A stretch of DNA of 64,000 nucleotides from Hymenobacter sp. BT559. GTDB lineage: Bacteria > Bacteroidota > Bacteroidia > Cytophagales > Hymenobacteraceae. Below, in pieces: positions 1-19,433 of this stretch. The notes below the pieces were generated by a model. It did not search any database, was not told the origin of the DNA, and saw nothing but the letters and a program-made list of their open reading frames with translations. Positions within the stretch are counted from its first letter, which is position 1, and every line of letters starts with the position of its first letter. The stretch spans positions 744,001 through 808,000 of the forward strand of contig NZ_JAELXV010000001.1 of NCBI RefSeq assembly GCF_016427535.1, given 5' to 3'. Position numbers and translations under genes: made by a program.

Positions 1-295
1 AGTCGTGCACGAGGGTAGGGCGGGGCAGCACTGTGAGGCGCAACCAATACGTGCTGTTGGTGTGCTGAATGTTGGGCGGGGCAGTGCCGGTGAGCGTAGC
101 GAAGCGCCCTGCCCAGGCCGGGCTGCTGACGACGCGCAGCGGCAGGTGCCCGCTGGTATCTTCCAGCACGCTGTAGAAGCGGTCCTCCAAAAAAAGGTTC
201 GGCTGGGCGGGCGAGACAAAAAGAGTGTCTTCGGGGGCAGCCGCCGCGCAGTGGGCTAGCAGCCCCAGTAGCAGTACCAGCCACGGGCGTACCAT
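1..295 (-). CDS. 7TMR-DISM sensor protein, N-terminal part (cut by window edge)
   Basis: I translated this directly, because the frame runs off the window. From the ATG at 295-293 it stays open for 98 codons. The first ~20 residues (MVRPWLVLLLGLLAHCAAAA) are a clear signal peptide. The following ~75 residues have the look of a 7TMR-DISM extracellular domain 2: a YSVLEDTSGHLPLR stretch, a W..RF segment and then NSTYWLRLTVLP. In Bacteroidota such domains precede seven membrane helices and a histidine kinase, a cyclase or a helix-turn-helix output; the output here lies outside the window. The gene diverges from the LytS-type kinase at 527, so the two sensors share a ~230-bp promoter region. I am confident of the domain type but not of the output. 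Confidence 0.75.
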   Translation of the reverse strand, partial: MVRPWLVLLLGLLAHCAAAAPEDTLFVSPAQPNLFLEDRFYSVLEDTSGHLPLRVVSSPAWAGRFATLTGTAPPNIQHTNSTYWLRLTVLPRPTLVHD

Positions 296-526
296 TCGGC
301 GCGCCCCGCCCCGCAGCCGCAACCACTGGGTAAGCGTAGAGCTAGGAAACACAGGAAAAGGAAAGTGGGTGGGAGAGAGTAACTGCTAAGTTAAAGCCGA
401 CCACTACACCAAGCCGCGCCAGCCCTCAAAAGCCGGTGGCAGTCGGCACAATTGGCCTGGTAGTCGGGAGTATGCGCCGGTGGGTAGGCCTCGCCAGTAC
501 TTTTGAAGCAGTATCTGCTGTAGACT

Positions 527-1630
527 ATGCCTGCTTTCATTTTTCGGCGCTATCTCACGCCCATCATCCACGTGCTAGCGTGGGGGTTGCTGGCACTGAC
601 GCTCCTCGTTTTTCAGCCTATGTCGGCCCGCATGGCCCTGCCCGTGCAGTTTTGGGTAAGGCAGGGGCTGCTGTTGCTGCTGTGGGTAGGTGTGTTTTAC
701 CTAACGGCCTACGTGAGCGTGCCGCGCCTGCTGCTAAAGGGGCGTACTGGCTGGTTTGTGGTAGTGCTGGTGCTTATGGCTGCTACTATTCAACTGCTGA
801 GCCGGGGCCTTGAAAATGCGCTGCACCTGCCCGAACTTATGCGCCAGGCCTTTCACGCGGCCGATGCCAGCCAGGGCCTGCCACGTCGCCCACCGGGGCC
901 ACCCCGCTGGCGCGGCCCTCGGTTCGATTTGGTAACCATGCTCATTACCCTGCTGGTGCTGGGTATTGCCACGGCCATTACGGTGGTGCAACACTGGCAG
1001 CACGAAGCCCAGCTGCGCGAGCGCCTCGACCAGCAGCGCACCGAGGCGGAGCTGTCGCTACTTAAGGCCCAAATTAACCCGCACTTCTTCTTCAACACGC
1101 TCAACAATATCTATTCGCTCACGCTCATCGACGGCGAGCGCGCCCGGGCGGCTCTACACCGCCTCTCACGCATGATGCGCTACGTGCTCTATGACACGGC
1201 TGCCGGTCAGGCCCAACTGAGCCAGGAGGTGGCTTTTGTGCAAGACTACATCACGCTCATGCAGTTGCGCCTCACCGACCGCGTGCAGGTGGTGTTCGAG
1301 TACCCTGAGCCGGTGCGCGAAGTGCTCATTGCACCCATGATTTTGCTGCCTTTTGTGGAAAATGCCTTTAAGCACGGCGTGGCGGCCACCCAGGCCAGCC
1401 GCATCATTATCAGTCTGAAGCAGCCCACTCCCGACCGCCTCGAAATAGAAGTGCGCAATACGCTGGTGCCCAAAACCGGTGCCGACCTAGCCGGCTCAAA
1501 TGGCATTGGCCTCGTAAACACCCGCCGCCGCCTCGACCTGCTTTATCCCGGCCGCTACGCCCTGCACGTCACCGAGCGCACGCCCGACAACGAGTTTGAC
1601 GTGCAACTGGCCCTGCAGGTGGGTGCGTAG
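527..1630 (+). CDS. LytS/YehU-type sensor histidine kinase
   Basis: This is an inner-membrane histidine kinase of 367 residues. Four hydrophobic segments (about residues 12-30, 45-65, 74-92 and 135-155) form the sensor, and a charged Pro/Arg-rich loop separates the third from the fourth. The cytoplasmic half is a His_kinase (PF06580) domain with the H-box QINPHFFFNTLNNI (phospho-acceptor His186). The N-box FVENAFKHG (Asn279) and the G-box GIGLVNTRRRLDLLY belong to an HATPase_c domain. The LytTR regulator 160 bp downstream is the expected partner. The two are separated by a long imperfect hairpin, so co-transcription may be attenuated. The chosen start gives a normal N-terminus; an overlapping ORF in another frame from 436 is a shadow. 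Confidence 0.93.
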   Translation: MPAFIFRRYLTPIIHVLAWGLLALTLLVFQPMSARMALPVQFWVRQGLLLLLWVGVFYLTAYVSVPRLLLKGRTGWFVVVLVLMAATIQLLSRGLENALHLPELMRQAFHAADASQGLPRRPPGPPRWRGPRFDLVTMLITLLVLGIATAITVVQHWQHEAQLRERLDQQRTEAELSLLKAQINPHFFFNTLNNIYSLTLIDGERARAALHRLSRMMRYVLYDTAAGQAQLSQEVAFVQDYITLMQLRLTDRVQVVFEYPEPVREVLIAPMILLPFVENAFKHGVAATQASRIIISLKQPTPDRLEIEVRNTLVPKTGADLAGSNGIGLVNTRRRLDLLYPGRYALHVTERTPDNEFDVQLALQVGA

Positions 1631-1646
1631 AAAAAGGGGATATTTG

Positions 1647-1740
1647 GTCATGCAGTGCGCACCTAAGCATCTCGCGTGCTGACGTATGGGAACGATTGAT
1701 TACTGCGCCACGTGAGATGCTCCGCTGCGCGCTGCATGAC
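1647..1740. repeat. Intergenic hairpin, GTCATGCAGCGCGC family
   Basis: Two ~34-nt arms that are imperfect reverse complements of each other (left from 1647, right ending 1740) surround a ~25-nt loop. The arms read GTCATGCAG.GCGCA...GCATCTC.CGTG. The same words recur at 6929-7019 and, shortened, at 18466-18500. It lies between the kinase and the LytTR regulator. Confidence 0.85.
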
Positions 1741-1789
1741 TGAATATAGAAGTGGATTTTAATGCGTAATAATTAAGCTGCAATAAGTT

Positions 1790-2530
1790 ATGACCGTTTC
1801 CTGCATCGCCGTCGATGATGAACCCCTGGCGCTAGCCCTACTCTGCACCTTTATCGAGCAAACACCCTTTCTAAAGCTGGTGGGCCGCTACGGCAGTGGC
1901 GTAGAAGCTCTGAAAGGACTGCACGAGCTAACGGAAAAGGTTGATGTAGCCTTTCTCGACATTCAGATGCAGGAGCTGACTGGCTTGGAGCTGGCGCGCG
2001 TGCTGGGCCAGCAGGCCACGGCGCCGCGCATCGTTTTCACCACTGCTTTCCCGCAGTATGCGCTCGAGGGCTACAAGGTCGATGCCCTAGACTACCTGGT
2101 CAAGCCCTTTAACTACGAGGAGTTTTTGCGCGCCGCCAATAAGGCCAAGGCTTACGCCGAGCTAGCCCAGGGCCAGGCCGAAGGCAATGCTCCCGCTCCA
2201 ACGCCCGAGGAAGATTATATTTTCCTGAAAGTAGAGTACCAGCTTATTCGGGTGGCGCTCAATGATATACTGTACGTAGAAGGCCTAAAGGACTACGTGA
2301 AGGTGCACCTCAAGAGCACGCCCCGCGCCCTGCTCTCGCTAATGAGCCTGCGGGCAATGGAGGAAAAGCTGCCTGCGCGTAGGTTTTTGCGCATTCACCG
2401 CTCCTTTATTGTGGCGCTCGACAAGATAGAATCGGTGCGCCGCCTCACGGTGCAAATTGGCACCGAGACCATTCCCGTGGGCGAGCAGTATAAGGAAGCC
2501 TTCGCCCAGTTCCTGAGCCGCTGGACCTAG
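1790..2530 (+). CDS. LytTR-family response regulator
   Basis: This 246-residue response regulator has an N-terminal CheY-like receiver with acidic pair DDE (residues 9-11), phospho-acceptor Asp57 in VAFLDIQMQELTG, Thr in VFTTAFPQYAL and Lys in DYLVKPF. A short linker leads to a LytTR DNA-binding domain (about 145-246: FLKVEYQLIRVALNDILYVEGLKDYVKVHL and FLRIHRSFIVALDKI; each is a family hallmark). It should be phosphorylated by the LytS-type kinase encoded just upstream. Targets cannot be told from this sequence; in this family they are usually membrane or envelope genes. Confidence 0.94.
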   Translation: MTVSCIAVDDEPLALALLCTFIEQTPFLKLVGRYGSGVEALKGLHELTEKVDVAFLDIQMQELTGLELARVLGQQATAPRIVFTTAFPQYALEGYKVDALDYLVKPFNYEEFLRAANKAKAYAELAQGQAEGNAPAPTPEEDYIFLKVEYQLIRVALNDILYVEGLKDYVKVHLKSTPRALLSLMSLRAMEEKLPARRFLRIHRSFIVALDKIESVRRLTVQIGTETIPVGEQYKEAFAQFLSRWT

Positions 2531-2577
2531 AGGGGAGGGGCCAGGGAGCCGGGGGTGGGGTAACACGAATGACAAGC

Positions 2578-2613
2578 AAAAAGCCTGCTAGCAATGTTGC
2601 TAGCGGGCTTTTT
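2578..2613. terminator. Bidirectional rho-independent terminator
   Basis: AAAAAGCC.GCTAGCAA and its complement form a stem with a 2-nt loop, flanked by A and T runs on both sides. It lies between the convergent LytTR gene and the Spy-like gene and can serve both. Confidence 0.85.
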
Positions 2614-2638
2614 AGTGGATGACAACCTAGGGCTCTGC

Positions 2639-3028
2639 CTAGTTGGCTGGTGCATCGCCGCTGGGGCGCGGGCCGCGCTGTGGGCGCATGCTTTGGTACT
2701 TGGTGAACTGCTCGGGGGTGAGGATTTCCTTGAGTTTAGCCTCCATTTCGGTGCGGCGGGTTTGCATGGCCTGGCGGTCGGCGTCGGTGGGTGGGCCCGA
2801 TTGGTTGCCGCGCATGCCTCCTTTGGCGCGCTGCTCCTGCATCAGGGCTTCGACTTTGGTTTTTTGGTCAGCCGTAAGGTTGAGGTCCTTGAACATGTCG
2901 CCGCGGCCCTGGCGGGCTTGGGCGGGCGCGTCTTGGGTGGGGGCTACTAAAGGGGTAGCGCGGGCCACAAGGCCAGTAGTGGCAAGGGCAGTGACTGCTA
3001 GGGCCAGCCGCAAAGAGTGCATGCGCAT
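2639..3028 (-). CDS. Spy/CpxP-like small periplasmic protein
   Basis: This is a secreted protein of 129 residues. I start it at the ATG at 3028, because from there the first ~25 residues (MRMHSLRLALAVTALATTGLVARA) form a signal peptide; the longer frame to 3136 adds a non-hydrophobic leader. The mature part is helical and charged and contains LNLTADQKTKVEALMQEQRA and a second LTPEQFTKY motif, spaced as the two LTxxQ motifs of Spy/CpxP-like proteins. Such proteins act as periplasmic chaperones or envelope-stress sensors. Gly/Arg/Pro-rich linkers and tail are typical of Bacteroidota versions. Confidence 0.75.
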   Translation of the reverse strand: MRMHSLRLALAVTALATTGLVARATPLVAPTQDAPAQARQGRGDMFKDLNLTADQKTKVEALMQEQRAKGGMRGNQSGPPTDADRQAMQTRRTEMEAKLKEILTPEQFTKYQSMRPQRGPRPSGDAPAN

Positions 3029-3305
3029 AGTGCTGAAAAGTAAGGTGATACTTGCACCGCTCACTAAGAAGCAGTGTCGCGATGCTGCCAAAGCTAGCGG
3101 CCTAGGGTGGGGGCAGCGTGGCCGACTCGGCGGCACTTGCTATTCTGCCGACTAACTCCACTATTTCATCGCCCCGCGCTGGCAGATATGCGCCTGCTAA
3201 CTGCTTCTGCCGATAACCTGAAGCAAAACCCCAACTCGCTGTAGCGCGTCTTTAGGCAGCGCGGGCCCGTGGTGGGCATGCCGCTTTTTCCGATACGCTG
3301 TTTTT

Positions 3306-4121
3306 ATGCCTACTCCTTCTTCACCCCGCCTGGCTGGGCAGTTTGCCCTCGTTACGGGTGCCAGCTCCGGCATTGGGGCCGCCGTAGCCGTGGCCCTAGG
3401 TGCGCATGGCGCCGCCGTGGTAGTCAACTACATTCACGACGAAGACGGCGCTAATGCCGTGGTCAAAGAAATTACCGATGCCGGCGGCACCGCCTTTGCC
3501 GTGCAGGCCGACGTCAGCGACGAAGCCGATTTGCAGGATATGTTTCGGCAGGCCATTGAACGCTTTGGCACCCTGCACATTGTGGTGGCCAACTCGGGTA
3601 TTCAGGTTGATGCGCCCTTCCTGGAAATGACCCTGGAGCAGTGGCAAAAAGTCATTAATGTGAACCTGACCGGCCAGTTCTTAACGCTGCGTGAAGCCGC
3701 CCGCGAGTTTGTGCGCCGCGGCCCGCAGCCCGAGGTAAGCAAGGCCACCGGCAAAATCATTTGCATGAGCAGCGTGCACGAAGTCATTCCGTGGGCCGGC
3801 CACGTCAACTACGCGGCTACCAAGGGCGGCATTTTGCAACTTATGAAGAGCACCGCCCAGGAGCTGGCGCCGCACAAAATCCGCATCAATAGCATCGGGC
3901 CGGGCGCCATCAAAACGCCCATCAACCACGAGGCTTGGAGCACGCCCGAGGCCGAAGCCAAGCTGCTGGAACTCATTCCCTACAAGCGGGTGGGCGTGCC
4001 CGAAGACATTGGCAACCTAGCCGCTTGGCTGGTGTCGGACGAGGCCGACTACATCACCGGCCAAACCATCTTTATGGATGGCGGCATGACGCTGTACCCC
4101 GGCTTTGAGGCGGGCGGATAA
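3306..4121 (+). CDS. Glucose 1-dehydrogenase-like SDR
   Basis: This 271-residue classical short-chain dehydrogenase probably oxidises glucose to gluconolactone in the cytoplasm. It has the cofactor motif VTGASSGIG (about residues 16-24), ANSG where most have NNAG, catalytic Ser155/Ser156, Tyr169 and Lys173 (YAATK), and the C-terminal ending DYITGQTIFMDGGMTLYPGF usual for glucose 1-dehydrogenases of the GDH family. The next genes on the same strand are a GH63-like glucosidase and, further on, gluconokinase, which supports a glucose-to-gluconate role. Substrate assignment remains an inference, since SDRs of this group also oxidise other sugars and alcohols. Confidence 0.85.
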   Translation: MPTPSSPRLAGQFALVTGASSGIGAAVAVALGAHGAAVVVNYIHDEDGANAVVKEITDAGGTAFAVQADVSDEADLQDMFRQAIERFGTLHIVVANSGIQVDAPFLEMTLEQWQKVINVNLTGQFLTLREAAREFVRRGPQPEVSKATGKIICMSSVHEVIPWAGHVNYAATKGGILQLMKSTAQELAPHKIRINSIGPGAIKTPINHEAWSTPEAEAKLLELIPYKRVGVPEDIGNLAAWLVSDEADYITGQTIFMDGGMTLYPGFEAGG

Positions 4122-4143
4122 GTCAAGAGTTGTTATGATTTGT

Positions 4144-4244
4144 TTGTCATAGCGAGGAGGCATGACGAAGTAATCACATCAGGACGAGCCTGCCTAGGTT
4201 CCGTTTCAGTGAGATTATTTCGTCGTGCCTCCCCGCAATGACAA
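4144..4244. repeat. Intergenic hairpin, GTCATTGCGAG family
   Basis: Arms TTGTCATAGCGAGGAGGCAT... (from 4144) and ...CCCCGCAATGACAA (to 4244) pair over about 32 nt with a few mismatches. The loop contains a CCTAGG. It is related to the hairpins at 43535 and 47605. It separates the SDR gene from the glucosidase gene. Confidence 0.82.
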
Positions 4245-4293
4245 GCGTTTTCTATAGCTGCTAAGCGCTTCTTAACCCTAACTATTTTCGACC

Positions 4294-6921
4294 TTGACTC
4301 CTGAACACCAACGCCTGGCCGAAGCTGACGCTAACAAGAAGCCGTGGCGGCGCTTTGGGCCTTACCTCGCCGAGCGGCAGTGGGGCACCGTGCGCGAAGA
4401 CTACTCGGCTGGCGGCGACGCCTGGAACTACACCACCTTCGACCAAGCCCGCAGCCGCGCCTACCGCTGGGGGGAGGAGGGCCTAGGGGGCTTTTGCGAC
4501 GACCGGCAGCTGCTGTGCCTGGGCCTAGCCCTGTGGAATGGGCAAGATGCCATCTTGAAAGAGCAACTGTTTGGGGTGAGCGGCGCGCAGGGCAACCACG
4601 GCGAAGACGTAAAGGAGGTGTACTACTACCTCGATGCCACGCCCACGCACTCGTACCAAAAAATGCTCTACAAGTACCCGCAAGGGGCTTTCCCGTACGA
4701 GCAGCTGCTGCAAGAGAACGCCAAGCGCACGCGCCACGACCCAGAATACGAGCTGCTCGACACGGGCATTTTTGCCGATAGCCGCTACTTCGACGTATTT
4801 ATTGAATACGCCAAGGCCGATGTTGAAGACTTGCTGATTCAGGTAACCGTGGTGAACCGCGGACCCGACGAGGCAACGCTGCACCTACTGCCGCAACTGT
4901 GGTTTCGTAATACCTGGGGCTGGGGCTACGAAGACGAAAAGCCGAACCTAGGGGCCACGCCCGAAGGTGCGGTGCGCGTGCTACACCAAGAATTAGCCGA
5001 ACTAGCCTGGTACGCTGACGAGCAGCCCGAACTGTTGTTTTGCGACAATGAGAGCAACGACGAGCGGCTGTACGGCCGGCCATCGCCGGGCGAGTTTTTC
5101 AAGGACGGTGTTTATAATTATATAGTCAACGGCGAGCAGCAAGCCGTGAACCCGGCGCGCACGGGCACCAAGGTGGCCGCGCACTACCCGCTGGTGCTGG
5201 CGGCCGGGGCTACGCGGCAAGTGCGCCTGCGCCTAGGTCCACCGGGCCAGGCCGAGCCCTTCGCTGCCTTCGATGCTGTGTTGGCACAGCGGCAACAGGA
5301 GGCCGAGCAGTTTTACGCCGAGATTCAGCACAAAATAGCTGACCAGGACGCCCGCAACGTACAGCGCCAGGCCCTGGCTGGCATGCTCTGGAGCAAGCAG
5401 TTTTATAACTACAACGTGCCGCGCTGGCTGGTAGGCGACCCTGGCCAGCCCGCCCCGCCACCCCAGCGCCTAGAGGGCCGCAACGCCGACTGGATGAGCT
5501 TCGACGCCAACGACATCATCTCGATGCCCGACACCTGGGAGTACCCTTGGTTTGCGGCCTGGGATTTGGCTTTTCATGCCATTCCGCTGGCGCAGGTTGA
5601 TGCCGAGTTTGCCAAAAGCCAGCTGCGGCTGCTCACCCGCGACTGGTACATGCACCCCAATGGGCAGCTGCCGGCCTACGAGTGGCGCTTCGACGATGTG
5701 AACCCGCCGGTGCACGCCTGGGCCACGTTTCGGGTGTATAAGATGGAACAAAAGCACCACCCCGATGGCGGCGACGCGGCCTTTTTGCAGGTTATGTTCC
5801 ACCGCCTACTGCTCAATTTTACGTGGTGGGTCAACCGCAAAGACCGCGACGGGCGCAACATCTTCGAGGGCGGCTTCTTAGGGCTCGACAACATTGGGGT
5901 GTTTGACCGCTCGGCGCCGCTGCCCGTGGGGGGCTACCTCGAGCAGGCCGATGGCACGGCCTGGGTGGCCATGTTTGCCTTGAACATGATGCGCATTGCG
6001 CTGGAGCTGAGCAAGACCAACCCCGTGTACCAGGATATGGCGAGCAAGTTCTTCGAGCACTTCCTCTACATTGCCGAGGCCATGACCAACGTGGGCGAGA
6101 CCAAACTCGACTTGTGGGACAGCGCAGATGAGTTTTACTACGACGCCCTGAACACGCCTGAAGGCGGCCACGAACTGCTGAAAGTGCGCACCATCGTGGG
6201 CTTGATTCCGATGTTTGCGGTAGAGGTGCTTGATGAAGAGGTGCTCAAGGCCGCGCCCGAGTTTGTGGCCCGCATGCAATGGCTGCTCGCCAACCGCCCT
6301 AGGTTGGCCTCGTTAGTCTCGCACTGGCAAGAGCCTGGCCAGGCCGCTACCCGGCTGCTGAGTTTGCTGCGCGGCCATCGCCTCAAGTGCCTGCTGTACC
6401 GCATGCTAGACACGGCCGAGTTCTTGTCGGACTACGGCGTGCGCAGCCTCTCGCGGGTGTACCTAGACAAGCCCTACGTGTTTCGCGATACCGACATCAC
6501 GGTGGGCTACCAGCCAGCCGAGTCGCAAAACGACCTGTTTGGGGGCAACAGCAACTGGCGCGGCCCCATCTGGCTGCCCATCAATTTCTTGATTGTCGAG
6601 TCGCTGCAGCGCTTTCACCACTACTACGGCGACGATTTTAAGGTAGAATACCCCACGCACTCGGGCCAGTATGTGACGCTGCTCGACGTGGCCGACGCCC
6701 TCACGGCGCGCCTCACCAAGCTGTTTTTGCGCGACCCCGACACCGGCCGCCGCGCCTGCTTCGGCGACAGTGATATGCTGCAGCACGACCCCAATTTCAA
6801 AGACAACCTTTTCTTCCACGAGTACTTCAATGGCGACAATGGCTACGGCCTCGGCGCCAGCCACCAAACCGGTTGGACTGGACTGATTGCCAAGCTTCTG
6901 CAACCTAGGAGCCATCGGTAG
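4294..6921 (+). CDS. GH63-like glucosidase (MGH1-type)
   Basis: This 875-residue protein resembles bacterial GH63-type glycoside hydrolases, which remove alpha-linked glucose from oligosaccharides. Family-like stretches are FCDDRQLLCLGLALWNG near residue 70, DTWEYPWFAAWDLAFH and PAYEWRFDDVNPPVHAW in the middle, and GGNSNWRGPIWLPINFLIVESL towards the end, all within an (alpha/alpha)6 barrel. No signal peptide is visible, so it is probably cytoplasmic. The start is TTG: an in-frame TAA lies 15 bases upstream and there is no ATG near. A TATTTTCG element 5-12 bases before it resembles a Bacteroidota -7 box, so the leader may be very short. The neighbouring glucose dehydrogenase would use released glucose. 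Confidence 0.85.
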   Translation: MTPEHQRLAEADANKKPWRRFGPYLAERQWGTVREDYSAGGDAWNYTTFDQARSRAYRWGEEGLGGFCDDRQLLCLGLALWNGQDAILKEQLFGVSGAQGNHGEDVKEVYYYLDATPTHSYQKMLYKYPQGAFPYEQLLQENAKRTRHDPEYELLDTGIFADSRYFDVFIEYAKADVEDLLIQVTVVNRGPDEATLHLLPQLWFRNTWGWGYEDEKPNLGATPEGAVRVLHQELAELAWYADEQPELLFCDNESNDERLYGRPSPGEFFKDGVYNYIVNGEQQAVNPARTGTKVAAHYPLVLAAGATRQVRLRLGPPGQAEPFAAFDAVLAQRQQEAEQFYAEIQHKIADQDARNVQRQALAGMLWSKQFYNYNVPRWLVGDPGQPAPPPQRLEGRNADWMSFDANDIISMPDTWEYPWFAAWDLAFHAIPLAQVDAEFAKSQLRLLTRDWYMHPNGQLPAYEWRFDDVNPPVHAWATFRVYKMEQKHHPDGGDAAFLQVMFHRLLLNFTWWVNRKDRDGRNIFEGGFLGLDNIGVFDRSAPLPVGGYLEQADGTAWVAMFALNMMRIALELSKTNPVYQDMASKFFEHFLYIAEAMTNVGETKLDLWDSADEFYYDALNTPEGGHELLKVRTIVGLIPMFAVEVLDEEVLKAAPEFVARMQWLLANRPRLASLVSHWQEPGQAATRLLSLLRGHRLKCLLYRMLDTAEFLSDYGVRSLSRVYLDKPYVFRDTDITVGYQPAESQNDLFGGNSNWRGPIWLPINFLIVESLQRFHHYYGDDFKVEYPTHSGQYVTLLDVADALTARLTKLFLRDPDTGRRACFGDSDMLQHDPNFKDNLFFHEYFNGDNGYGLGASHQTGWTGLIAKLLQPRSHR

Positions 6922-6928
6922 TCTGTTC

Positions 6929-7019
6929 TGTCATGCAGCGCGCAGCGAAGTATCTCGCGTGGTGCAATAATCAATGACGATTGCACTACGCGAGATACTT
7001 TGTTGTGCCTGTGATGACA
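6929..7019. repeat. Intergenic hairpin, GTCATGCAGCGCGC family
   Basis: The left arm TGTCATGCAGCGCGCAGCGA pairs with the right arm ending TGTGATGACA, with a well-matched inner part (GTATCTCGCGTGGTGCAA against TTGCACTACGCGAGATAC). It is followed by AT-rich repeats of the type AATTAACCATTAATAACTG up to the next start codon. It lies between the glucosidase and cyclase genes. Confidence 0.85.
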
Positions 7020-7056
7020 ATTAACCATTAATAACTGACAATTAACAATTAAAAGC

Positions 7057-7683
7057 ATGCCCATTCCTGCTCCCTGGCTCGATGCCACTACTCCCATCCG
7101 CGACAACATGGTGCACTGGCCCGACAACCTCGGCGTGACCGTGGGACGCACCCTTAGCCAAGACCGGGGCGACGCGGCCAACGTAACCGAGCTGCACCTG
7201 AGCGGCCACACCGGCACCCACGTCGATGCCCCCCTGCACTTTAGCAGCGACGGCGGCGACATCACTACCCTCGACCTAGGGCGCCTGATGGGCCCCGCCA
7301 CGGTAGTCGCCATCCAAGACTCCAAGAGCATCAGCCTGGCTGAGGTGCAGCAGCTCAGCATCAAGCCCGGCGCGCGGCTGCTCTTCAAAACCCGCATCTC
7401 GGACGGCGAATGGAGCACCGCCCCCTTCCAGCCCGATTTTGTGGCCCTCGATGGCGATGCCGCCGCCTACCTGCGCGATGCCGGCGTGGTGTGCGTGGGG
7501 GTAGATTACCTTTCGGTAGGCAAGGCCGACGCCCACCATGCCCTGCTCGATGCAGGCATCTGCGTAATTGAGGGCCTAGCCCTACAGCACATCGCGCCTG
7601 GCGAGTATGAGTTGCTGTGCTTACCGCTGCTCATTGTGGGGGCCGATGGGGCTCCGGCTCGGGTGCTGCTGCGGCCACTGTAA
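7057..7683 (+). CDS. Cyclase-family metal-dependent hydrolase (kynurenine formamidase-like fold)
   Basis: This 208-residue protein belongs to the cyclase family (PF04199). The metal-binding motif HxGTHxD appears as GHTGTHVDAPLHF near residues 51-63, and the conserved VGVDYLSVGK and IVEGL-like segment (CVIEGLALQHI) follow. Characterised relatives include kynurenine formamidase and lactone- or amide-opening hydrolases. Between a glucose dehydrogenase/glucosidase pair and gluconokinase, opening of an aldonolactone would fit, but this is only inferred from context. No signal peptide is seen. A perfect-looking terminator hairpin follows it. Confidence 0.82.
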   Translation: MPIPAPWLDATTPIRDNMVHWPDNLGVTVGRTLSQDRGDAANVTELHLSGHTGTHVDAPLHFSSDGGDITTLDLGRLMGPATVVAIQDSKSISLAEVQQLSIKPGARLLFKTRISDGEWSTAPFQPDFVALDGDAAAYLRDAGVVCVGVDYLSVGKADAHHALLDAGICVIEGLALQHIAPGEYELLCLPLLIVGADGAPARVLLRPL

Positions 7684-7751
7684 GTAGTGGCCCTAGTGCC
7701 AGTTGCTAGGGTGGTAGGATAGCCCTTTTTTAAGCCCTGCCGTAAGCGCCT

Positions 7752-7791
7752 AAGGAACCAGCGGCCCGAACAAACTGGCCGTTGGTTCCTT
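7752..7791. terminator. Stem-loop before gluconokinase start (terminator or attenuator)
   Basis: AAGGAACCAGCGGCC pairs with GGCCGTTGGTTCCTT (14 of 15 positions) over a 10-nt loop, followed by GTTCTGTTT. It ends only 11 bases before the gntK ATG, so it may end the cyclase transcript or control gntK translation. Confidence 0.7.
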
Positions 7792-7802
7792 GTTCTGTTT
7801 AC

Positions 7803-8312
7803 ATGAAGCAAGCAAACATCATCGTCATGGGTGTGTCGGGCAGCGGCAAAACCACCATCGGCGAACTCCTAGCCAAACAGCTCGGCCGGCCGTTTTACGA
7901 CGGCGACGACTTCCACTCGGCCGCCAACGTGGCCAAGATGGCCGCGGGCCACCCACTCACCGATGCCGACCGGCACGACTGGCTGGCCTCGCTGGCCAAG
8001 TACCTAGGCGAGTGGGAGGCCGCGGGCGGCGCCGTGCTGGCGTGCTCGGCCCTGAAAGAAACCTACCGCCAAACCCTGCAAGCCGGCGAGCAGCTGCCCC
8101 TGACGTGGGTGTTCCTAGAAGGTAGCCGCGAGCTGCTGGAAGCGCGCCTCGAAGGCCGCACCAACCATTACATGAAAGCCTCGATGCTCGACTCGCAGCT
8201 CGACACGCTTGAAAAGCCAACCTACGGTATTCGCATTGAGCTGACTAATAGCGAAACGCCCGAGCAAGTGGTAGCACGCATTGTAGCGCAGCTGCCAGCT
8301 GGTACCACCTAG
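7803..8312 (+). CDS. gntK: Gluconokinase
   Basis: This carbohydrate kinase of 169 residues phosphorylates gluconate to 6-phosphogluconate, feeding the pentose phosphate or Entner-Doudoroff route. It shows the P-loop GVSGSGKTTIG (residues 10-20), YDGDDFHSAANVAKMAAGHPLTD, which is a GntK signature, and LACSALKETYR. I start it at the ATG at 7803, where MKQANIIVMG gives the usual first beta strand; the frame extends to 7782 but crosses the stem-loop. Its TAG stop lies inside a CCTAGG. With the glucose dehydrogenase-like and lactonase-like genes it completes a plausible glucose to 6-phosphogluconate path. Confidence 0.93.
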   Translation: MKQANIIVMGVSGSGKTTIGELLAKQLGRPFYDGDDFHSAANVAKMAAGHPLTDADRHDWLASLAKYLGEWEAAGGAVLACSALKETYRQTLQAGEQLPLTWVFLEGSRELLEARLEGRTNHYMKASMLDSQLDTLEKPTYGIRIELTNSETPEQVVARIVAQLPAGTT

Positions 8313-8325
8313 GTGCCCCGCGCCA

Positions 8326-8622
8326 GTGGGTGGCAGGCTCAGCGTGGCCTTCATGCGCGGCCATCTGCCACGGGCAGCACCTAGGCGCCCGCGCCTAATC
8401 TCCAGTCTTGGCTATCGACACCTGCAATTCGTTTGTGCAGGCGTCGGCGTGCGCATTATTGGGCTCAATGTGGGGGTGGTGCCGCGGGGCAAGTACTACC
8501 GCCTCAACCTGTTTGTGGGCGCCATTTGGCACGATTGGCAGGCGCACCGGCAGCGGGTGCGGGGCCGGCGCGCGGCCGCTGTAGCCTCGCCGGCCACGCC
8601 TGCCCAAATGGTGAATCCTTAG
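8326..8622 (+). CDS. Short unrecognised ORF, possibly a gene remnant
   Basis: I do not recognise this 98-residue frame. It lies alone in a 386-bp gap between gntK and the next gene. The central part (residues ~25-75: IISLGYRH-like start, GVRIIGLNVGVVPRGKYYRL, NLFVGAIWHDWQ) looks like real protein and has third-position G/C typical of the neighbours, whereas the first 25 residues are Arg/Pro-rich and probably untranslated. It could be the end of a decayed membrane or envelope protein. No signal peptide or catalytic motif is visible. Confidence 0.35.
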   Translation: MGGRLSVAFMRGHLPRAAPRRPRLISSLGYRHLQFVCAGVGVRIIGLNVGVVPRGKYYRLNLFVGAIWHDWQAHRQRVRGRRAAAVASPATPAQMVNP

Positions 8623-8698
8623 GACCTAGGGCTAAAAAGCGGCACCGTATTGGCTAGGACCGGTTTTTGGGTGGACCTTTGCGCTCGTTACCTAGGCT

Positions 8699-10852
8699 AT
8701 GTGTATGCAAAAGAATGGTTGGTTATTGGCGTTGTTTCTAGTGCTAAGCGGGGTGGCCCGCGCCCAGGCGCCGCTGCTGCGTAGCCTCTCCCTCACCCTC
8801 GACACCACGCAGTATCGCCTAGGTGAGCAAATGATACCGGTGGCTGGTGAAGAGCGACTGTACTTCTATTACCACCAAGACGACCAGGCCGCCGAGCTGC
8901 GCCTGACGCCCACTCAGCCCGGCCGCCCGCCCCGCCTGCTGCCCTCGGCCGACTACGTGCTGCAAGACACCTTGGTAGCCAATGCCAACGGCGAATACCG
9001 CGGCACACTGCGCTTCCACAACCTCACGGGCCTGCCCTTTGTGCGGCTCACGTTTGTGCAGGCCGGGGCGCCGGTCGCCGACTCGGCGGGCCGGCCTGCG
9101 CTGCGGGCCACCATGCGCCAGCAGCTGGTGAGCCTGCTCCCGCTCACGCGCACCACGCTCGATGCCCGGGTGCTGGATAATGAGCTGTTTATAGGGGATG
9201 AGCGCGTTATTGAAGTCACTACCAATAACATCGCCAACATCCGGGTTAGCAATGAGTGGACCAAGGGGCAGGATATTGATTACCGCCTGTCGCGCGAGCA
9301 GGGCGGCCTGCGCCTGCACGTGGTGCCCAATGCCCTAGGGGTGCGCACGCTCACGCTCAAGACCTTGGTCGAGCGCCCGTACCTCGACCCTACGGGTCAC
9401 CTCAGCTACCAGCTGCCACCGCTGCGCTTCGACTTTGCGGTGAAGGCCAGCCGCCTGCGTTTCCTCACCGCCGAGCGCAAAGACGTGAACTACGACGAAG
9501 AGGGCCGCACCCGGGGCGTCGAGTTTGTGCTGGATGATGGCCACTCATTTGACCTGCACCGCACCTACCGCCTGGAGGCGCAGCAGGAAGCCGGCGGCGC
9601 CCTCATTGCCGAGCTCTATACCCGCAGCTACCTTTCTAATGACCGGGTGCTTTGCCAGCTGCGCGTCTATAATACCCACCGCCAGGCCGATGGCTACCTC
9701 TACATCAAGGATGGCGACCTGGCCAAGTTTATTACCAACTTCGATATTACGCCTAGGCCGCGCATTGCCAATGTGAGCGTACTGCACCGGGGCGGCGACT
9801 GGAGCTCGAACACCACCATCAACCCCGGCGAAACCGTGGACGTGCGCCTCGAAGGCGAGTCGCTGCTGAAGGGCCGCTACCATTTCGATGGGGCAAACGT
9901 CATTCCCTCCGACTCTTCGACGCGCTCCGAAAAGGCGCTCATCTACCGCGTGCAAGTGCCACTCAGCAGCGTGCGCCGCCGCATCACCATCTTCGATGGC
10001 AGCAACGCCACTGACTTTGGGCTGAGCGTGAAGGAAGCCCAGCGGCCCCACCCGCTCAACTTTGTGCAGGTAAACTACGGCGACGGGCCGCACCCCGTCA
10101 CGCAGCTCAACGGGCCGGTGCTCTACGACAAAACCATCCCCGATTTGGTGTTTAGCTTCAACACCAACGCCATCGACGAGGCGGGAAACCTCTACGGCCG
10201 CCAGTACCTGAGCATGGACATCCGGACGGTAGACGACAAGGGCAACCTCATCGACCAGCGCACCGTGGACCAGCTCGTGATTTGCCCCGGCGAGGCCTCA
10301 CCCCGCTACGCCTACTACCAAGGCGCCGAGTGCCAGGTGGGCAATTTCAGCCTCAACAGCATCCTAGGGCGCAAAACCTACGACCTCGATGCCTGGTACC
10401 GCATTATTGTCACCGTCCGCAACGATGCCCGGCAGTACAGCACCAAGGGCTACTCGCAGCAAATCGAATTGGTATTGCGCCGCCACGTCAACTTCGACAT
10501 CAGCGTCAGCTTCCCGGCCGGCTTGCTCACCAAGTACAAAGGCGAATCGACTTACAACAGCTTTGGGGGCATCAGTCTGGCTACGCTGGCGCAGCTTAGC
10601 TTCTACGCTCCCGACCGCATCAACCGCCTGCGGCCCTACCGCATCGGGGCCGGCTTTGTGGCGCTGAATGCCTTTAACTTATCTAACAATGCCAACGTGG
10701 AGCGCGACCTGGGCTTGGTTGTGATTGGCTCGGTGGTGCCCGTGCGCACCGGGGCGCGGCTCACGTTTCCGCTCTACCTAGGGGGAGGTTACCTGCTTAC
10801 TAGAGGCACCCCCTTTCTATTATTTGGGCCAGGCATCGGCGTCACGCTATAG
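8699..10852 (+). CDS. Large secreted protein of unknown function
   Basis: I do not recognise this 717-residue protein. It begins with a signal peptide (MQKNGWLLALFLVLSGVARAQ, starting at the third codon). The mature part is rich in alternating hydrophobic/polar segments, consistent with several beta-sandwich domains. The last ~130 residues (FDISVSFPAGLLTKYKG... to FPLYLGGGYLLTRGTPFLLFGPGIGVTL) resemble strands of an outer-membrane barrel. A charged stretch ERKDVNYDEEGRTRGVEF lies near residue 260. It is followed by a strong bidirectional terminator, so it is probably a single-gene unit. An envelope or outer-membrane role is inferred from the signal peptide and C-terminal strands only. Confidence 0.8.
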   Translation: MCMQKNGWLLALFLVLSGVARAQAPLLRSLSLTLDTTQYRLGEQMIPVAGEERLYFYYHQDDQAAELRLTPTQPGRPPRLLPSADYVLQDTLVANANGEYRGTLRFHNLTGLPFVRLTFVQAGAPVADSAGRPALRATMRQQLVSLLPLTRTTLDARVLDNELFIGDERVIEVTTNNIANIRVSNEWTKGQDIDYRLSREQGGLRLHVVPNALGVRTLTLKTLVERPYLDPTGHLSYQLPPLRFDFAVKASRLRFLTAERKDVNYDEEGRTRGVEFVLDDGHSFDLHRTYRLEAQQEAGGALIAELYTRSYLSNDRVLCQLRVYNTHRQADGYLYIKDGDLAKFITNFDITPRPRIANVSVLHRGGDWSSNTTINPGETVDVRLEGESLLKGRYHFDGANVIPSDSSTRSEKALIYRVQVPLSSVRRRITIFDGSNATDFGLSVKEAQRPHPLNFVQVNYGDGPHPVTQLNGPVLYDKTIPDLVFSFNTNAIDEAGNLYGRQYLSMDIRTVDDKGNLIDQRTVDQLVICPGEASPRYAYYQGAECQVGNFSLNSILGRKTYDLDAWYRIIVTVRNDARQYSTKGYSQQIELVLRRHVNFDISVSFPAGLLTKYKGESTYNSFGGISLATLAQLSFYAPDRINRLRPYRIGAGFVALNAFNLSNNANVERDLGLVVIGSVVPVRTGARLTFPLYLGGGYLLTRGTPFLLFGPGIGVTL

Positions 10853-10880
10853 CGCGAGGTAGTAGTCTAGCGAATAACAT

Positions 10881-10930
10881 AAAACAGAAAGGCCCTGGCG
10901 TCGCTAAGTGCGCCAGGGCCTTTCTGTTTT
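10881..10930. terminator. Perfect bidirectional terminator
   Basis: A 20-bp perfect inverted repeat, AAAACAGAAAGGCCCTGGCG and its complement, surrounds a 10-nt loop between two convergent genes. A and T runs on both sides suit termination in both directions. Confidence 0.93.
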
Positions 10931-10964
10931 GGGTGCGGAGCGGGTACGCAGCCCGCTGAGTTTA

Positions 10965-11345
10965 TTACTGCTTTGCGTTTTTGCCGGTCGTCACTGACGG
11001 GGCCACCAGCACTTTGCCCTTGGGGTCGCGCGTGGTGTTGTGTCCCTGGCCACCCGAGCTGACGACCTGTTTGGAAGCAGCCTTGCCTGCGCCCGCGCCT
11101 TTGCTGCTGCCGGTGCGCGTGCCGCTAGAGCCGGGGGCTACCTTGTAGTTGGGCTTGGCAGTGGTGGGGTTGTTGTTGCCGGCGCTGCTGCTCGTGTTCG
11201 AGCTATTGCCGCTGCTGACGTTTTGGTTGCCATTGGCGCCAGTGCTGTTGCCGCCATTATGAGCGCCGCCAGTGCGGCCTTCTTGCGCTGCTGCCGTGCC
11301 GACGGTAGCGGCTACGAGAGCGAGGAAAACAAATGTCTTTTTCAT
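10965..11345 (-). CDS. Small secreted Asn/Ser/Gly-rich protein
   Basis: I start this at the ATG at 11345, giving 126 residues with a signal peptide MKKTFVFLALVAATVGTAAAQ; the longer frame to 11390 adds 15 unlikely residues. The mature protein is low-complexity, rich in Asn, Ser, Gly, Thr and Ala (NGGNSTGANGNQNVSSGNSS), and turns basic in the middle (SSKGAGAGKAASKQ). No domain is visible. Such proteins in Bacteroidota are often envelope-associated and disordered. Function unknown. Confidence 0.65.
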   Translation of the reverse strand: MKKTFVFLALVAATVGTAAAQEGRTGGAHNGGNSTGANGNQNVSSGNSSNTSSSAGNNNPTTAKPNYKVAPGSSGTRTGSSKGAGAGKAASKQVVSSGGQGHNTTRDPKGKVLVAPSVTTGKNAKQ

Positions 11346-11801
11346 AACTGCATGAGGGAAGTAAGTTGGTAGCAATACGGCTGGCCTCATGCGGGCGTTC
11401 TGGCTTTTGGCTAAAAAATTTGGGGTTTAGCTATCCGGAAACTCACGCCCCGAGTAGTTGAATGTCAGACTGGCTAAGCCATAGCAAGTAGCCGAAAGCA
11501 TTGTCTAGCTAATTATCTAGAGCGGCCCAGCGCACTAACTCCAGCCTGAAAGCATCGTCTGCTAGCTATCGCTGTCGCGCTGGTAAGCCCATGCGCGTTG
11601 CGGCAGCCTAGGCCTTGACCTAGGGCATAGTTAGAAAGCTAACCCTGTTGTGCTGCGCGAGGCAGCTCGCCTAGGTGGTACCCTAGGCGAGCGATTAAAA
11701 AAATAGGAGGTGCCGTGGGCAAAAATGCAAGGCGTGGCATCCACTCTATAACAGCGCCGAGCGTCGGCGTGCCTTCAATTCCTTTCTACTTTGTATTGGA
11801 T
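11346..11801. other. 456-bp gene-free stretch with a cluster of four CCTAGG sites
   Basis: I see no convincing gene here. CCTAGG occurs at 11607, 11619, 11671 and 11682. The last two form the ends of an 11-bp perfect stem (GCTCGCCTAGG at 11665-11675, its complement at 11682-11692) with a 6-nt loop, followed by GATTAAAAAAAT. The stretch lies between divergent genes, so it should hold both promoters. A TACTTTG element lies at 11788-11794, close to the downstream start. Confidence 0.6.
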
Positions 11802-12251
11802 ATGCGTCTCACTACTGGGTTACTCGTTTGGGCAGCATTGCTGCCAGTGCCAATATTGGCGCAAAAGCCACTGCCATTGCCCGTAGACAGCGTTTCTACA
11901 GAGCCCGACCAGGAGCTCGATGACTTTAGTAGCCGTTTTAAAGGTATTCACCGCATTACGGCGAAGATGCGCGGAGTGCGGGGAGTAGGCAAAACGGCAT
12001 ACCTAGTCAGCTCTGATGGGCAGCAGTTGTCGGCATTTCGGGCAAATCATTTGTTGTGGACGACCAATGTGGTAGCGCCCTTCAAAACAAGAACTCCAGC
12101 CGCTCGCATTTCTTCGCTGGTCTTATCATCAAATATTCTGTTTGTAAGCCTAGCGAAACGCGGGATGGCCGAGGTTGACCGAAATACCGGTAAGATTGTA
12201 AGCAAGTATTTTGACCGTGACCCTAACCACATAGTAGCAGAGCCGCACTAA
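11802..12251 (+). CDS. Small secreted protein of unknown function
   Basis: Starting at the ATG at 11802 this gives 149 residues beginning with a signal peptide (MRLTTGLLVWAALLPVPILAQ). A TACTTTG promoter-like element lies shortly before. The mature part starts with an acidic, probably flexible segment (residues ~22-45), followed by a compact domain containing TAKMRGVRGVGKTAYLVSSDGQQLSAF and VAPFKTRTPAARISSLVLSSNILFVSLAKRGMAEVDRNTGKI. The latter resembles the beta-strand repeats of propeller proteins, but a single copy proves nothing. It converges on the TonB-dependent receptor with a 9-bp gap and no obvious terminator. Confidence 0.6.
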   Translation: MRLTTGLLVWAALLPVPILAQKPLPLPVDSVSTEPDQELDDFSSRFKGIHRITAKMRGVRGVGKTAYLVSSDGQQLSAFRANHLLWTTNVVAPFKTRTPAARISSLVLSSNILFVSLAKRGMAEVDRNTGKIVSKYFDRDPNHIVAEPH

Positions 12252-12260
12252 AAGTTGGCC

Positions 12261-14372
12261 TTATTGCCAGCGCCAGCCCACCTGCGCCCCGCCGTAGTAG
12301 TTGCGGCCAGGTGCGGGCTGGAAGTAGCGCCCGCCAAAGGCATTGAGGTCGTTGCCGAGACTGTAGCGGCGGTCGCCCGCGTTTTCTACGCCGGCGTAGA
12401 GGTCCACAGCCAGGCGGCCCAGCAGCGTGCGGCGCCACCCGGCGCGGCCCCCAAATACCCAGTAGCCCGCCGCGTAATCGGTGTTAGCATCGTTGAGCGG
12501 AATCATGGCCTGGTGGCTAAGCGTGGGGCTGGCGTAGAACCCTAGGTGCTCACTAAAGTCGAGGCCCGCGCTGAGCGTGTGCGGTGCGGTGCCCGTGAGG
12601 CGGTTGCCGCTAAAGCTCTGGCCGGTGGCCGATTCGTAAGTGCCAAAGCGGAAATGGTTGTAGGCGTAGCTGCCCCACAGGCGCAGCCCGGCCGGCGGGC
12701 TCAAGGCCTCGGCCGAAGTGGCGGGCCGCCACAGCCAGCCGCTGGCGGCCACTTCGGCGCCACGCTGGCGGGTGTTGCCCGAGTTGGCGTAGAGCTGGAA
12801 GCCCTGCGCATCGGTGCGCGACACGATGGTATTGCGCAGCGCAAAATCAAACAGCGCCACGTCGAAAATCAGGCGGCCGCCCAGCAGCGTGCCGCGGCTG
12901 CCCACCTCGTAGCTGGTGCCGCGCTCGGCCTGCAAGTCGCGGTTGATGCTGCCATCGGAGGGCCGGAGCTCGGCCTCGGTGGGCGGCGAGTAGCCAGTGC
13001 TCACGCTGGCATAGGCCGAGATGTTAGGCGTCAGTTCTTTCAGTAAAGCCAGCCGCGGCGATACTTCGGGCCGGAAAGTCTGCGCTACTACGTAGCCATT
13101 GGGGTTGGTAGCCGCGCTGCTCACGCGGGCAATTTGGTAGCGCAGGCGGTTGTAGCTGGCGCCCGCCGTAAGCAGGAAGCCCGCCGGCAGCTCGTAGTCG
13201 GCCTGGGCAAAGACGAAGCCCGTGCGGGTCGTAATCTCGTCGTCGTAGCGCAGCGTGGTAGGGTTGCCCAGCACGTTGAGGTAGCTACGCGAGTCGGTGA
13301 AAGAGGCCTGAAACTCGCCGCCGCCCTGCACCCGCAGCACGCGCCCGGCCAGTGCGCCCTTGTAGTTAAGCGTAGCCCGGCCGCCCCCACCTAGGGCCGC
13401 GTCGCGCTGCCAATCAACCAGATAGGGAGTGGCCACGCGGGTGCTGCGGCCGTACACGGTGGCCGTGGTGCTCCAACGCTCCGAAAAGCGGTACTCGTGG
13501 GTGAGACCTAGGAGGCCGGTTTGCGAGGAGTAACTGCCCTGCTGGGCCACCGTGCCAGGCGCCGCCGCCGTGCCCGGCCGGGCCTGGCGCGGGTTGGCCT
13601 CGAACTGCGCCCGCGTGAGGCCGCCCGGCAGCTGGTAGTAGAGGTCGGTATAAAGCGCGTGTACCGAGAGCGTCTGCTTATCGCTGGGACTAATTTGCCC
13701 ATCCACCGCAAACACGTCGCGGCGCAGGGCGCTCTGCTGGCGGTAGCCGCTTAGCTGCTGGTGCGCATACTGCGCCCGCCAGTAGTCGGTGCCCTTGCCG
13801 CTGGCCTCGGCCGAAGCCGTGAAGCGCCGCAGGCCATACGAGCCCACCGAGTAGCCCACCTGCGCCTGAGGTTGGCCGGCGGCGGGGCGGCGGTTTTCGA
13901 GGCGCACCACGCCGCCCGTGCCGGCGCCGTACACGCTGCCCGCCGGCCCCTTCAGCACCTCGATGCGGCCTAGCTGCGCGGGGTCTAGAATATTGAGCGG
14001 CGTGGTGCCGTTGGCCTCCGTAAAGGGGATGTCGAAGTAGTACAGCTTCACATTGCGCACCCCAAACGGCGAGCGCAACGTGCTGCCGCGCACGCTGATG
14101 CGGTAGCTGGCCGTGGCCCGCTCCTCGAGCCGCACGCCGGGCAGCGTGTTCACGGCCGAGGCCAGCGAGTTTTCATTAAACCGCTGAATAATAGTCTGGT
14201 CAACGACGCCGACGCCGGCGGCCGTGCGCCGCAGGGGCAGCCGCTGCCCATAGCCCACCACGGTGGCTGAGGGCAGGGCGCGGGCATTGGTGGTGTCGGA
14301 AGGGGTGGTTTGCGCGGCCGCGCGCCAAGCGGGTAGGCCAAGCAGAACCAGTAAAAAGTAAGGGGTTTGCAT
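12261..14372 (-). CDS. TonB-dependent outer-membrane receptor (siderophore/metal type)
   Basis: This protein of about 703 residues is an outer-membrane gated channel. I start it at the ATG at 14372 for the signal peptide MQTPYFLLVLLGLPAWRAAAQ. The plug domain (about 35-150) carries SASAVNTLPGVRLEERATASYRISVRG-like sequence (read: LASAVNTLPGVRLEE and ISVRGSTLRSPFGVRNVKLY) and IEVLKGPAGSVYGAGTGGVV. A 22-strand barrel follows, with YSPPTEAELRPSDGSINRDLQAERGTSYEVG, and ends in a Trp-containing strand (GAQVGWRWQ). There is no carboxypeptidase-like N-terminal domain and no SusD partner, so iron or another metal chelate, rather than glycan, is the likely cargo. A TonB-C protein diverges from it. Confidence 0.92.
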   Translation of the reverse strand: MQTPYFLLVLLGLPAWRAAAQTTPSDTTNARALPSATVVGYGQRLPLRRTAAGVGVVDQTIIQRFNENSLASAVNTLPGVRLEERATASYRISVRGSTLRSPFGVRNVKLYYFDIPFTEANGTTPLNILDPAQLGRIEVLKGPAGSVYGAGTGGVVRLENRRPAAGQPQAQVGYSVGSYGLRRFTASAEASGKGTDYWRAQYAHQQLSGYRQQSALRRDVFAVDGQISPSDKQTLSVHALYTDLYYQLPGGLTRAQFEANPRQARPGTAAAPGTVAQQGSYSSQTGLLGLTHEYRFSERWSTTATVYGRSTRVATPYLVDWQRDAALGGGGRATLNYKGALAGRVLRVQGGGEFQASFTDSRSYLNVLGNPTTLRYDDEITTRTGFVFAQADYELPAGFLLTAGASYNRLRYQIARVSSAATNPNGYVVAQTFRPEVSPRLALLKELTPNISAYASVSTGYSPPTEAELRPSDGSINRDLQAERGTSYEVGSRGTLLGGRLIFDVALFDFALRNTIVSRTDAQGFQLYANSGNTRQRGAEVAASGWLWRPATSAEALSPPAGLRLWGSYAYNHFRFGTYESATGQSFSGNRLTGTAPHTLSAGLDFSEHLGFYASPTLSHQAMIPLNDANTDYAAGYWVFGGRAGWRRTLLGRLAVDLYAGVENAGDRRYSLGNDLNAFGGRYFQPAPGRNYYGGAQVGWRWQ

Positions 14373-14608
14373 CAAATACGCTGGGAGTGTGCCTGCCAAA
14401 CGGCTAGGCGAAGTAGAAGTTTGGGTGCGGCTGGGCTGGCTGGGCCAGCGTGGTCGCCTAGGTCACGATGGGACAGGCGTCCGCGGCCGCAAGAAGGGCG
14501 ACACTTCGTCACTGCATTACGGCCGCTATCAGCGCCTTGTGCATTCACGCAGGGTACAGGCAAGCTGCCGCTTCTTGCACACCAATCACCTATCAATTTG
14601 TTGCTTAC

Positions 14609-15313: not shown

Positions 15314-15375
15314 GCAAGTGTCCCGATGCGGCTGGGCTTGTTCCAAAAATAAAAACCGTATCTAACCCCATCCTC

Positions 15376-15460: not shown

Positions 15461-15515
15461 GGTGGAGCTATGCTAAAAACAACTGGCGCAGCTATTGTCA
15501 CTGGTTTGACGCAGC

Positions 15516-19432: not shown

Positions 19433-19433
19433 A

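Follow-up and report, generated by a model that had tools for sequence, protein, structure and literature searches.

CCTAGG as a highly iterated word in a Hymenobacter genome: recent spread, retention and spacing of sites

The hexamer CCTAGG was found to be an over-represented palindrome, in coding and intergenic DNA alike, of a Hymenobacter genome from which a stretch of 64,000 bases (contig NZ_JAELXV010000001.1, positions 744,001 to 808,000; hereafter the window) was analysed. Within the window (1..64000) it occurs 115 times, against 19.7 ± 4.0 in 100 dinucleotide shuffles, none of which exceeded 30, and the whole genome (5,789,226 bases in 14 contigs; hereafter the focal genome) carries 8591 copies, that is, one per 674 bases. 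The sites repel one another within about 150 bp, and the word has spread recently and is now retained in the focal genome and its sister Hymenobacter setariae. We tentatively interpret CCTAGG, with somewhat less than even confidence, as a highly iterated word of uptake-sequence-like self-recognition, maintained by selection or transmission drive on DNA, a reading of its function that is drawn from sequence pattern.

Positions and frames of CCTAGG

Relative to the 43 whole genes of the window, 80 sites read nnC-CTA-GGn, 7 read CCT-AGG (3101, 6298, 6904, 9752, 20124, 33215, and 38366), 4 form stop codons, and 24 are intergenic. The plus-strand glycoside-hydrolase-like gene at 4294..6921, with an MGH1-like domain (PF22422), contains sites at 4482, 4947, 5232, 6298, and 6904, the last two of which (6298..6303 and 6904..6909) give Pro-Arg in the reading frame of the ORF; a further Pro-Arg site lies at 9752..9757 in the plus-strand ORF 8699-10852. 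TAG stops are supplied to the kinase gene 7782-8312 (PF01202, termed gntK in the initial annotation; site 8308..8313) and the LacI-family regulator 59757-60785 (60781..60786), both on the plus strand, and, on the minus strand, to the genes for aldehyde dehydrogenase 40803-42347 (40802..40807) and fructose-1,6-bisphosphatase (FBPase) 42499-43509 (42498..42503). These three Pro-Arg coordinates and four stop codons had all been assigned correctly in the initial annotation.

Codon, frame, and flank tests were performed on 354 kb of the focal genome (about 6%), using genes defined by the ORF calls of this analysis (minimum 100 codons); five of the 201 tested ORFs had a suspicious frame and were excluded from the position and frame map, though not from every later count. 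In this sample, 404 sites were located at Leu-Gly, 46 at Pro-Arg, 28 at gene edges, and 117 in intergenic DNA, with densities of 2.63 per kb in intergenic and 1.45 per kb in genic sequence; in H. setariae the corresponding contrast was smaller (1.58 versus 1.34). Thus the use of all frames proposed earlier holds in a loose sense, the coding sites being mostly confined to the Leu-Gly frame by protein constraint.

Both CTA and AGG were much commoner inside the motif than outside it. Leucine between C and GG was encoded by CTA in 405 of 564 cases (71.8%), versus 43 of 395 in H. ginkgonis, and in five other contexts of the focal genome by CTA in only 7.7-19.3%; when all Leu-GG pairs were considered, CCTAGG accounted for 405 of 1002 in the focal genome versus 43 of 1259 in H. 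ginkgonis. Likewise, arginine was specified by AGG in 46 of 63 codons after CCT, 7 of 251 after other CCn codons, and 99 of 6096 after non-CCn codons. The tie of CTA to CCTAGG was therefore borne out, whereas the proposal that CTA appears chiefly before Gly was not, as only 474 of 1625 CTA codons (29%) precede GG (147 of 1683 in H. ginkgonis). Similarly, TAG stops were enriched in the CCTAGG context, with 22 of 128 lying inside the motif versus 1 of 164 in H. ginkgonis (p = 6e-8), while TAG itself is an ordinary stop here, with an unchanged share of all stops (128/278 versus 164/361). The excess at Leu-Gly, Pro-Arg, stop, and intergenic positions supports the earlier proposal that the process acts on DNA and not on protein. 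As to amino-acid recruitment by CCTAGG, the data were only suggestive: Leu-Gly was retained in H. ginkgonis at 76 of 118 motif pairs and 119 of 157 others (p = 0.045; p = 0.065 with Pro-Arg pooled).

Spread, retention and mutual repulsion of sites

The FBPase protein of the focal genome is 99% shared with that of H. setariae Fur1, and the 63 relatives collected by FBPase are nearly all Hymenobacter. Among 36 other genomes of the genus, CCTAGG was counted 8806 times in H. setariae (G032 in the genus set) and 2331 times in G018, the remaining 34 having 63-661 copies; 22 genomes from other families of the order contained 5-807. A count of 7530 was obtained for H. polaris, and seven other counted genomes of its clade had 170-661. 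The focal lineage stands 13-fold above the median of the other sampled species. A tree from eight neighbouring proteins placed the focal genome and H. setariae as sisters (100/100) and does not fix the position of H. polaris within the 11-member clade; Leu-Gly sites were shared with H. polaris in 9 of 19 cases versus 3 of 27, on few data. CCTAGG thus became abundant in either one or two lineages within a single clade. G018 was rejected as a third such lineage: CTAGGCCA/AGTGGCCTA predominates in this genome, and its CCTAGG sites, mostly flanked by G and C, look incidental.

The fate of individual sites was followed in BLASTN alignments (minimum piece length 150 bases, minimum identity 68%) covering 254 kb with H. 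setariae (87.9% identity) and 96 kb with H. ginkgonis (79.0%). CCTAGG was the best conserved of 1402 frequent hexamers between the focal genome and H. setariae (343/430 versus 49.8% overall; 38/140 for GCTAGC), and the worst conserved of 525 hexamers between the focal genome and H. ginkgonis (7/154). On the basis of these opposite extremes, the alignments indicate that the spread of the word is recent, postdating the divergence from H. ginkgonis, and that the word is now held. In accordance with this, CTA was retained in H. setariae in 275 of 311 motif cases versus 178 of 594 in other contexts, and in H. ginkgonis alike in both (12/118 and 19/197). The two sister genomes had comparable numbers of sites not present in the other (77 and 89), which resembles a steady state.

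Losses at the motif were examined by the kind of difference. Although C-to-T at position 2 was the commonest single difference (34 of 107), its frequency was below background (0.047 versus 0.168), and hypermutation of 5-methylcytosine at this position was accordingly not supported. Each of the six kinds of difference at positions 2 and 3 was rarer than in the same trinucleotide elsewhere, T-to-G only slightly so, and C-to-A at position 1 was not clearly below background (0.007 versus 0.007-0.016). A mere rise in the input of sites would not reduce losses.

Past the CCTAGG core, information resides mainly in one flanking base, and the word extends beyond six bases as CCTAGG with A preferred on one side only. 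The Gly wobble position after the motif was T in 39.8%, G in 35.6%, and C in 22.2% of cases, compared with 17.4% T and 61.5% C, the usual base, in other Leu-Gly pairs; the pattern after the motif was alike in H. setariae. Wobble T was kept in 84 of 106 cases after the motif versus 258 of 682 at other Gly codons, and wobble C was kept less than usual (29/48 versus 3447/4093 elsewhere). While A on one side was favoured, A on both flanks was disfavoured, ACCTAGGT being found 24 times versus 77 expected from independent flanks. H. polaris instead prefers C and G at the 5' flank. Chi and the FtsK-orienting polar sequences (KOPS) are likewise short, over-represented words, which are strand-polar; ACCTAGG was balanced between the strands (217/211 in 354 kb), which argues against a polar word of this kind.

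A strong indication of redundancy among sites came from their spacing. In the focal genome, the fraction of Leu-Gly pairs spelled CCTAGG depended on the distance to the nearest other site, amounting to 5 of 54 at less than 30 bp, 23 of 93 at 30-60 bp, 37 of 113 at 60-100 bp, 32 of 116 at 100-150 bp, and about half beyond 150 bp. Comparison of pairs at less than 100 bp with those at 200-1000 bp gave 65/260 versus 251/508 in the focal genome (p = 5.5e-11), 70/263 versus 251/513 in H. setariae (p = 1.6e-9), and 24/136 versus 108/332 in H. polaris (p = 1.0e-3), with no effect in H. ginkgonis (2/29 versus 12/164). Five other Leu-Gly spellings per genome (20 in total) served as controls, none of which was significant in the focal genome or H. 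ginkgonis. When spellings were shuffled within genes, as few pairs at less than 100 bp as observed were obtained in 0 of 1000 shuffles for the focal genome and H. setariae and in 15 of 1000 for H. polaris; at 150 bp, the value for H. setariae was 2 of 1000. The coefficient of variation (CV) of the gaps in the focal sample was 0.84, compared with 1.04 ± 0.04 in a matched null. Repulsion is predicted by redundancy of nearby sites and not by mutation bias or codon preference, both of which it strongly disfavours, and variation among genes should give the opposite sign. Between selection and mutation, which the initial annotation had left side by side, the data favour selection or drive, because losses are strongly reduced and sites repel one another within about 150 bp.

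Candidate functions of the word

In the self-recognition reading, the sites of CCTAGG, which spread in the lineage of the focal genome and H. setariae once this had diverged from H. ginkgonis, would be redundant copies, one signal per DNA stretch, of a signal read by a sequence-specific protein, most likely one of the machinery for DNA uptake or recombination in natural transformation. Incoming DNA with the word would be recognised as self, taken up, and recombined, whereby alleles with the word would spread, and a second nearby site would add nothing, hence the repulsion. Such a role accords in several respects with the DNA uptake sequences (DUS) of Neisseriaceae and the uptake signal sequences (USS) of Pasteurellaceae, which occur about once every 1-1.5 kb, both within genes and between them, and are highly conserved. 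In the excerpted text of two studies, DUS dialects share the trinucleotide core CTG, are highly conserved, and are absent from recently acquired genes (PMC3630211, PMC2397512), and a third describes uptake words as without orientation bias (PMC1939737, in part). The CTA core of most Hymenobacter words corresponds to CTG, and CCTAGG is likewise conserved (343/430) in permissive positions (mostly the Leu-Gly frame for coding sites), scarce in unaligned DNA, and without polarity. It differs from DUS and USS in being a mainly palindromic word of 6-8 bases, compared with 9-10 asymmetric bases, in belonging to the phylum Bacteroidota, and in showing no clear core-gene bias in the focal genome.

The scarcity in unaligned DNA was seen in H. 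setariae, in which 442 sites fell in the 258 kb aligning with the focal sample and 130 in the remaining 142 kb, non-alignment being only a stand-in for acquired DNA; the unaligned part includes sequence lying beyond the focal sample. A 41-kb stretch of this part, picked for lacking sites, contained 10 CCTAGG, and 748 of its bases match the focal sample. This stretch (L086-L088, C9:410551-451681) encodes CheB, a PAS histidine kinase, a YhcG nuclease, and a beta-lactamase-family protein.

Several observations weigh against the self-recognition reading. Known uptake words exceed CCTAGG in length and are less palindromic, and repulsion would equally arise from any function that requires a single site per stretch, the initiation of repair among them. 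Two controls showed apparent repulsion, namely CCTCGG in H. polaris (0/127 versus 18/303, p = 0.0025) and, weakly, GCTCGG in H. setariae (p = 0.027), and 2 of 150 control hexamers of the focal genome matched CCTAGG in their short-range depletion. In H. polaris, the repulsion was weak past 60 bp, the shuffle value rising from 15 of 1000 at 100 bp to 100 of 1000 at 150 bp. Where the nearest other site lay more than 1000 bp away, the CCTAGG fraction dropped to 7 of 78 in H. setariae and 13 of 75 in H. polaris, that is, in motif-poor stretches, and the gap CV exceeded 1 in these two genomes (1.36 and 1.48), both of which have such stretches. The words of H. ginkgonis and G018 described below were without clear repulsion, so that the words may not form one system; that of G025 was strongly clustered at 8-100 bp. 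As for the machinery, ComEC was present in 17 of 17 genomes, including those without a clear word, and hence does not discriminate. Nor was a clear gene-class bias seen in the focal genome, where CCTAGG made up 133 of 307 Leu-Gly pairs in genes common to both relatives, 177 of 441 in those shared with H. setariae only, and 95 of 256 in those found in neither, which may merely fall outside the sampled stretches. A literature search on natural transformation or competence in Hymenobacter found none, with only a LexA study surfacing.

Searches joining uptake sequences with Bacteroidetes or Bacteroidota found no literature, and none of the matches listed in a further search dealt with an iterated word in Hymenobacter. 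Within the phylum, Riemerella columbina is described as favouring its own DNA in transformation, and the k-mer table for three Flavobacteriaceae in the excerpt of the same paper holds A/T-rich words only (PMC7965970).

The foremost rival, which we regard as unlikely yet serious, is a highly iterated palindrome (HIP) as in cyanobacteria, methylated by a solitary methyltransferase and serving, or made by, methylation-directed mismatch repair. CCTAGG resembles such words in its palindromic GC-rich core, a density near one per kb, and the sporadic word replacement in related genomes described in the excerpted text of Elhai (2015); HIP1 and its alternates are there GC-rich, mostly palindromic, and present at about 0.5-2.5 per kb (PMC4390886, in part). 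The repair model outlined by Elhai expects about one site per 1000 nt, and as one per stretch suffices, the repulsion fits as well. According to the same text, every genome with HIP words has a putative cognate methyltransferase, whereas for CCTAGG none common to the focal genome and H. setariae was found in the five families PF00145, PF01555, PF02384, PF07669, and PF02086 (41 genus genomes, H. polaris excluded), families beyond these and PF05063 lying outside the search. The focal genome gave no match to PF00145, PF01555, or PF02086, and its matches to PF02384 and PF07669 fell on one gene, a type IIG enzyme; when three of up to five H. setariae methyltransferases were compared with it, one 138-residue stretch at 30% was obtained and the others gave none. 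MT-A70 (PF05063) had no match in 12 genomes including H. polaris, but the controls were silent too. Vsr was absent from 12 of 13 genomes, including the focal genome, H. setariae, and G018. Furthermore, the long asymmetric words of relatives are unlike usual methylation sites. HIP1 also differs in that, as far as its description in the excerpted sources goes, extensions preserve the palindrome, compared with the one-sided flank of CCTAGG, and mutual repulsion is not met there.

The type IIG restriction-modification enzyme (1070 aa, L031:8103-11315) lies on the 78-kb contig C4 of the focal genome. The methyltransferase-bearing 20-kb stretches contained 4 CCTAGG on this contig and 1 and 9 on C14 and C9 of H. 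setariae, respectively. In the excerpted text of PMC1939737, a table of rare words gives CCTAGG as the recognition sequence of AvrII, BlnI, BspA2I, and XmaJI; restriction sites are often avoided (PMC4687349, in part), whereas this hexamer is enriched 5.4-fold above a first-order expectation.

Also unlikely, and a shade more doubtful, is a site for a chromosomal protein of the nucleoid, segregation, replication, or recombination that needs one site every few hundred bases. The even spacing in the focal sample, the intergenic excess, and the conservation would suit it, and Karlin's spacing argument for uptake words, in the part of PMC1939737 concerned, is similar in kind. Such a protein would hardly account for a 13-fold rise in one lineage and for differences among close relatives, unless the reader changes equally fast; the gap CV above 1 in H. 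setariae and H. polaris speaks against it, and without strand polarity the site would not be Chi- or KOPS-like. Far less probable is the making of CCTAGG by local mutation bias or biased repair without function: the excess in all positions, the prevalence of C-to-T at position 2, and the unremarkable C-to-A rate at position 1 would fit, whereas there is no visible way for a local process to give avoidance at 30-150 bp, the differences at positions 2 and 3 all lie below background, if slightly for T-to-G, and the focal genome and H. setariae have no Vsr. A codon preference, with CTA chosen ahead of Gly or AGG chosen behind Pro, to which the mostly Leu-Gly coding sites might point, is refuted by the intergenic excess (2.63 per kb), would have to require a preceding C and GG, is absent from H. 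ginkgonis, and is given practically no credence.

Other iterated words in Hymenobacter

Other iterated words were surveyed against a third-order Markov expectation in 80-500 kb from each of 17 genomes. By a standard that was a matter of judgement, clear words were found in 9 of the 17, and 8 of these 9 contain CTA or TAG. The focal genome and H. setariae yielded ACCTAGGGC (12- and 11-fold); H. polaris, CCCTAGGGC (27-fold); BT559 (L061-L066), GCTAGCCCC (13-fold); H. ginkgonis and UV11 (L198-L201), CCTACCCCC (36- and 44-fold), in the former also as CCTACCCC; G025, AGGGTAGGG (23-fold, partly a local cluster); G018, AGTGGCCTA (30-fold) and CTAGGCCAC (24-fold); and G010, GGGGGGCAA (16-fold). No word was judged to stand out in BRD67, G020, H. 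norwichensis, G002, G003, G006, and G060, and G012 yielded a long repeat in place of one; the 9-mer GTCCTCCGA of G002 (12 copies) was not counted as clear. A contrast of 56 of the 63 named loci, most of about 20 kb (all save L112, L119, L133, L142, L168, L171, and L172), gave a similar picture and showed CTACCCC/CCTACCC in H. sediminis, H. latericoloratus, and H. citatus as well.

These words suggest a wider, more speculative scheme, which we hold to be possible rather than probable, in which many Hymenobacter lineages would carry thousands of copies of their own dialect word, mostly with a CTA core, as a self-recognition code, an uptake or recombination receptor switching its specificity at species splits. 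If true, no dialect system of this kind would, so far as our literature searches go, have been known before outside Neisseriaceae and Pasteurellaceae, nor any with a near-palindromic word; and if the transformation machinery reads CCTAGG, sequence-based barriers to gene transfer between species would extend to a new phylum. Related species with, without, or with other versions of an iterated word offer a natural experiment on word origin. Selection on redundant sites can be told apart from local mutation bias by the repulsion test, which is applicable to any genome; on this question, in the excerpted sources, selection versus epiphenomenon was left open for HIP1 (Elhai, 2015) and selfish drive versus selection is debated for uptake words (PMC2397512).

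The word CCTACCCCC is asymmetric and was present in 295 copies in 500 kb of H. ginkgonis (L051-L060, L091-L105). BT559, a related species, has a different CTAG word, with GCTAGC at 1333, GCTAGG/CCTAGC at 1467, and CCTAGG at 125 per Mb. In 240 kb of H. polaris (L174-L185), AGAGATGCT (37 copies) and TCAGCATGA (41 copies) were 40- and 30-fold enriched and are unlike the CCTAGG word. In 80 kb of G012 (L218-L221), words of the TCAATCGGA/AGGAGGAAT type recurred about 30 times and perhaps represent a CRISPR array or another long repeat.

Finally, GATC was nearly absent from the clade of the focal genome. NGATCN palindromes numbered 0 in 154 kb of the focal sequence, and GGATCC occurred 15 times in its 5.79 Mb. 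The observation covers L111-L143; of ten loci examined in L111-L121, seven had no GATC and the others 1, 2, and 8. More distant Hymenobacter exhibited a milder avoidance of GATC.

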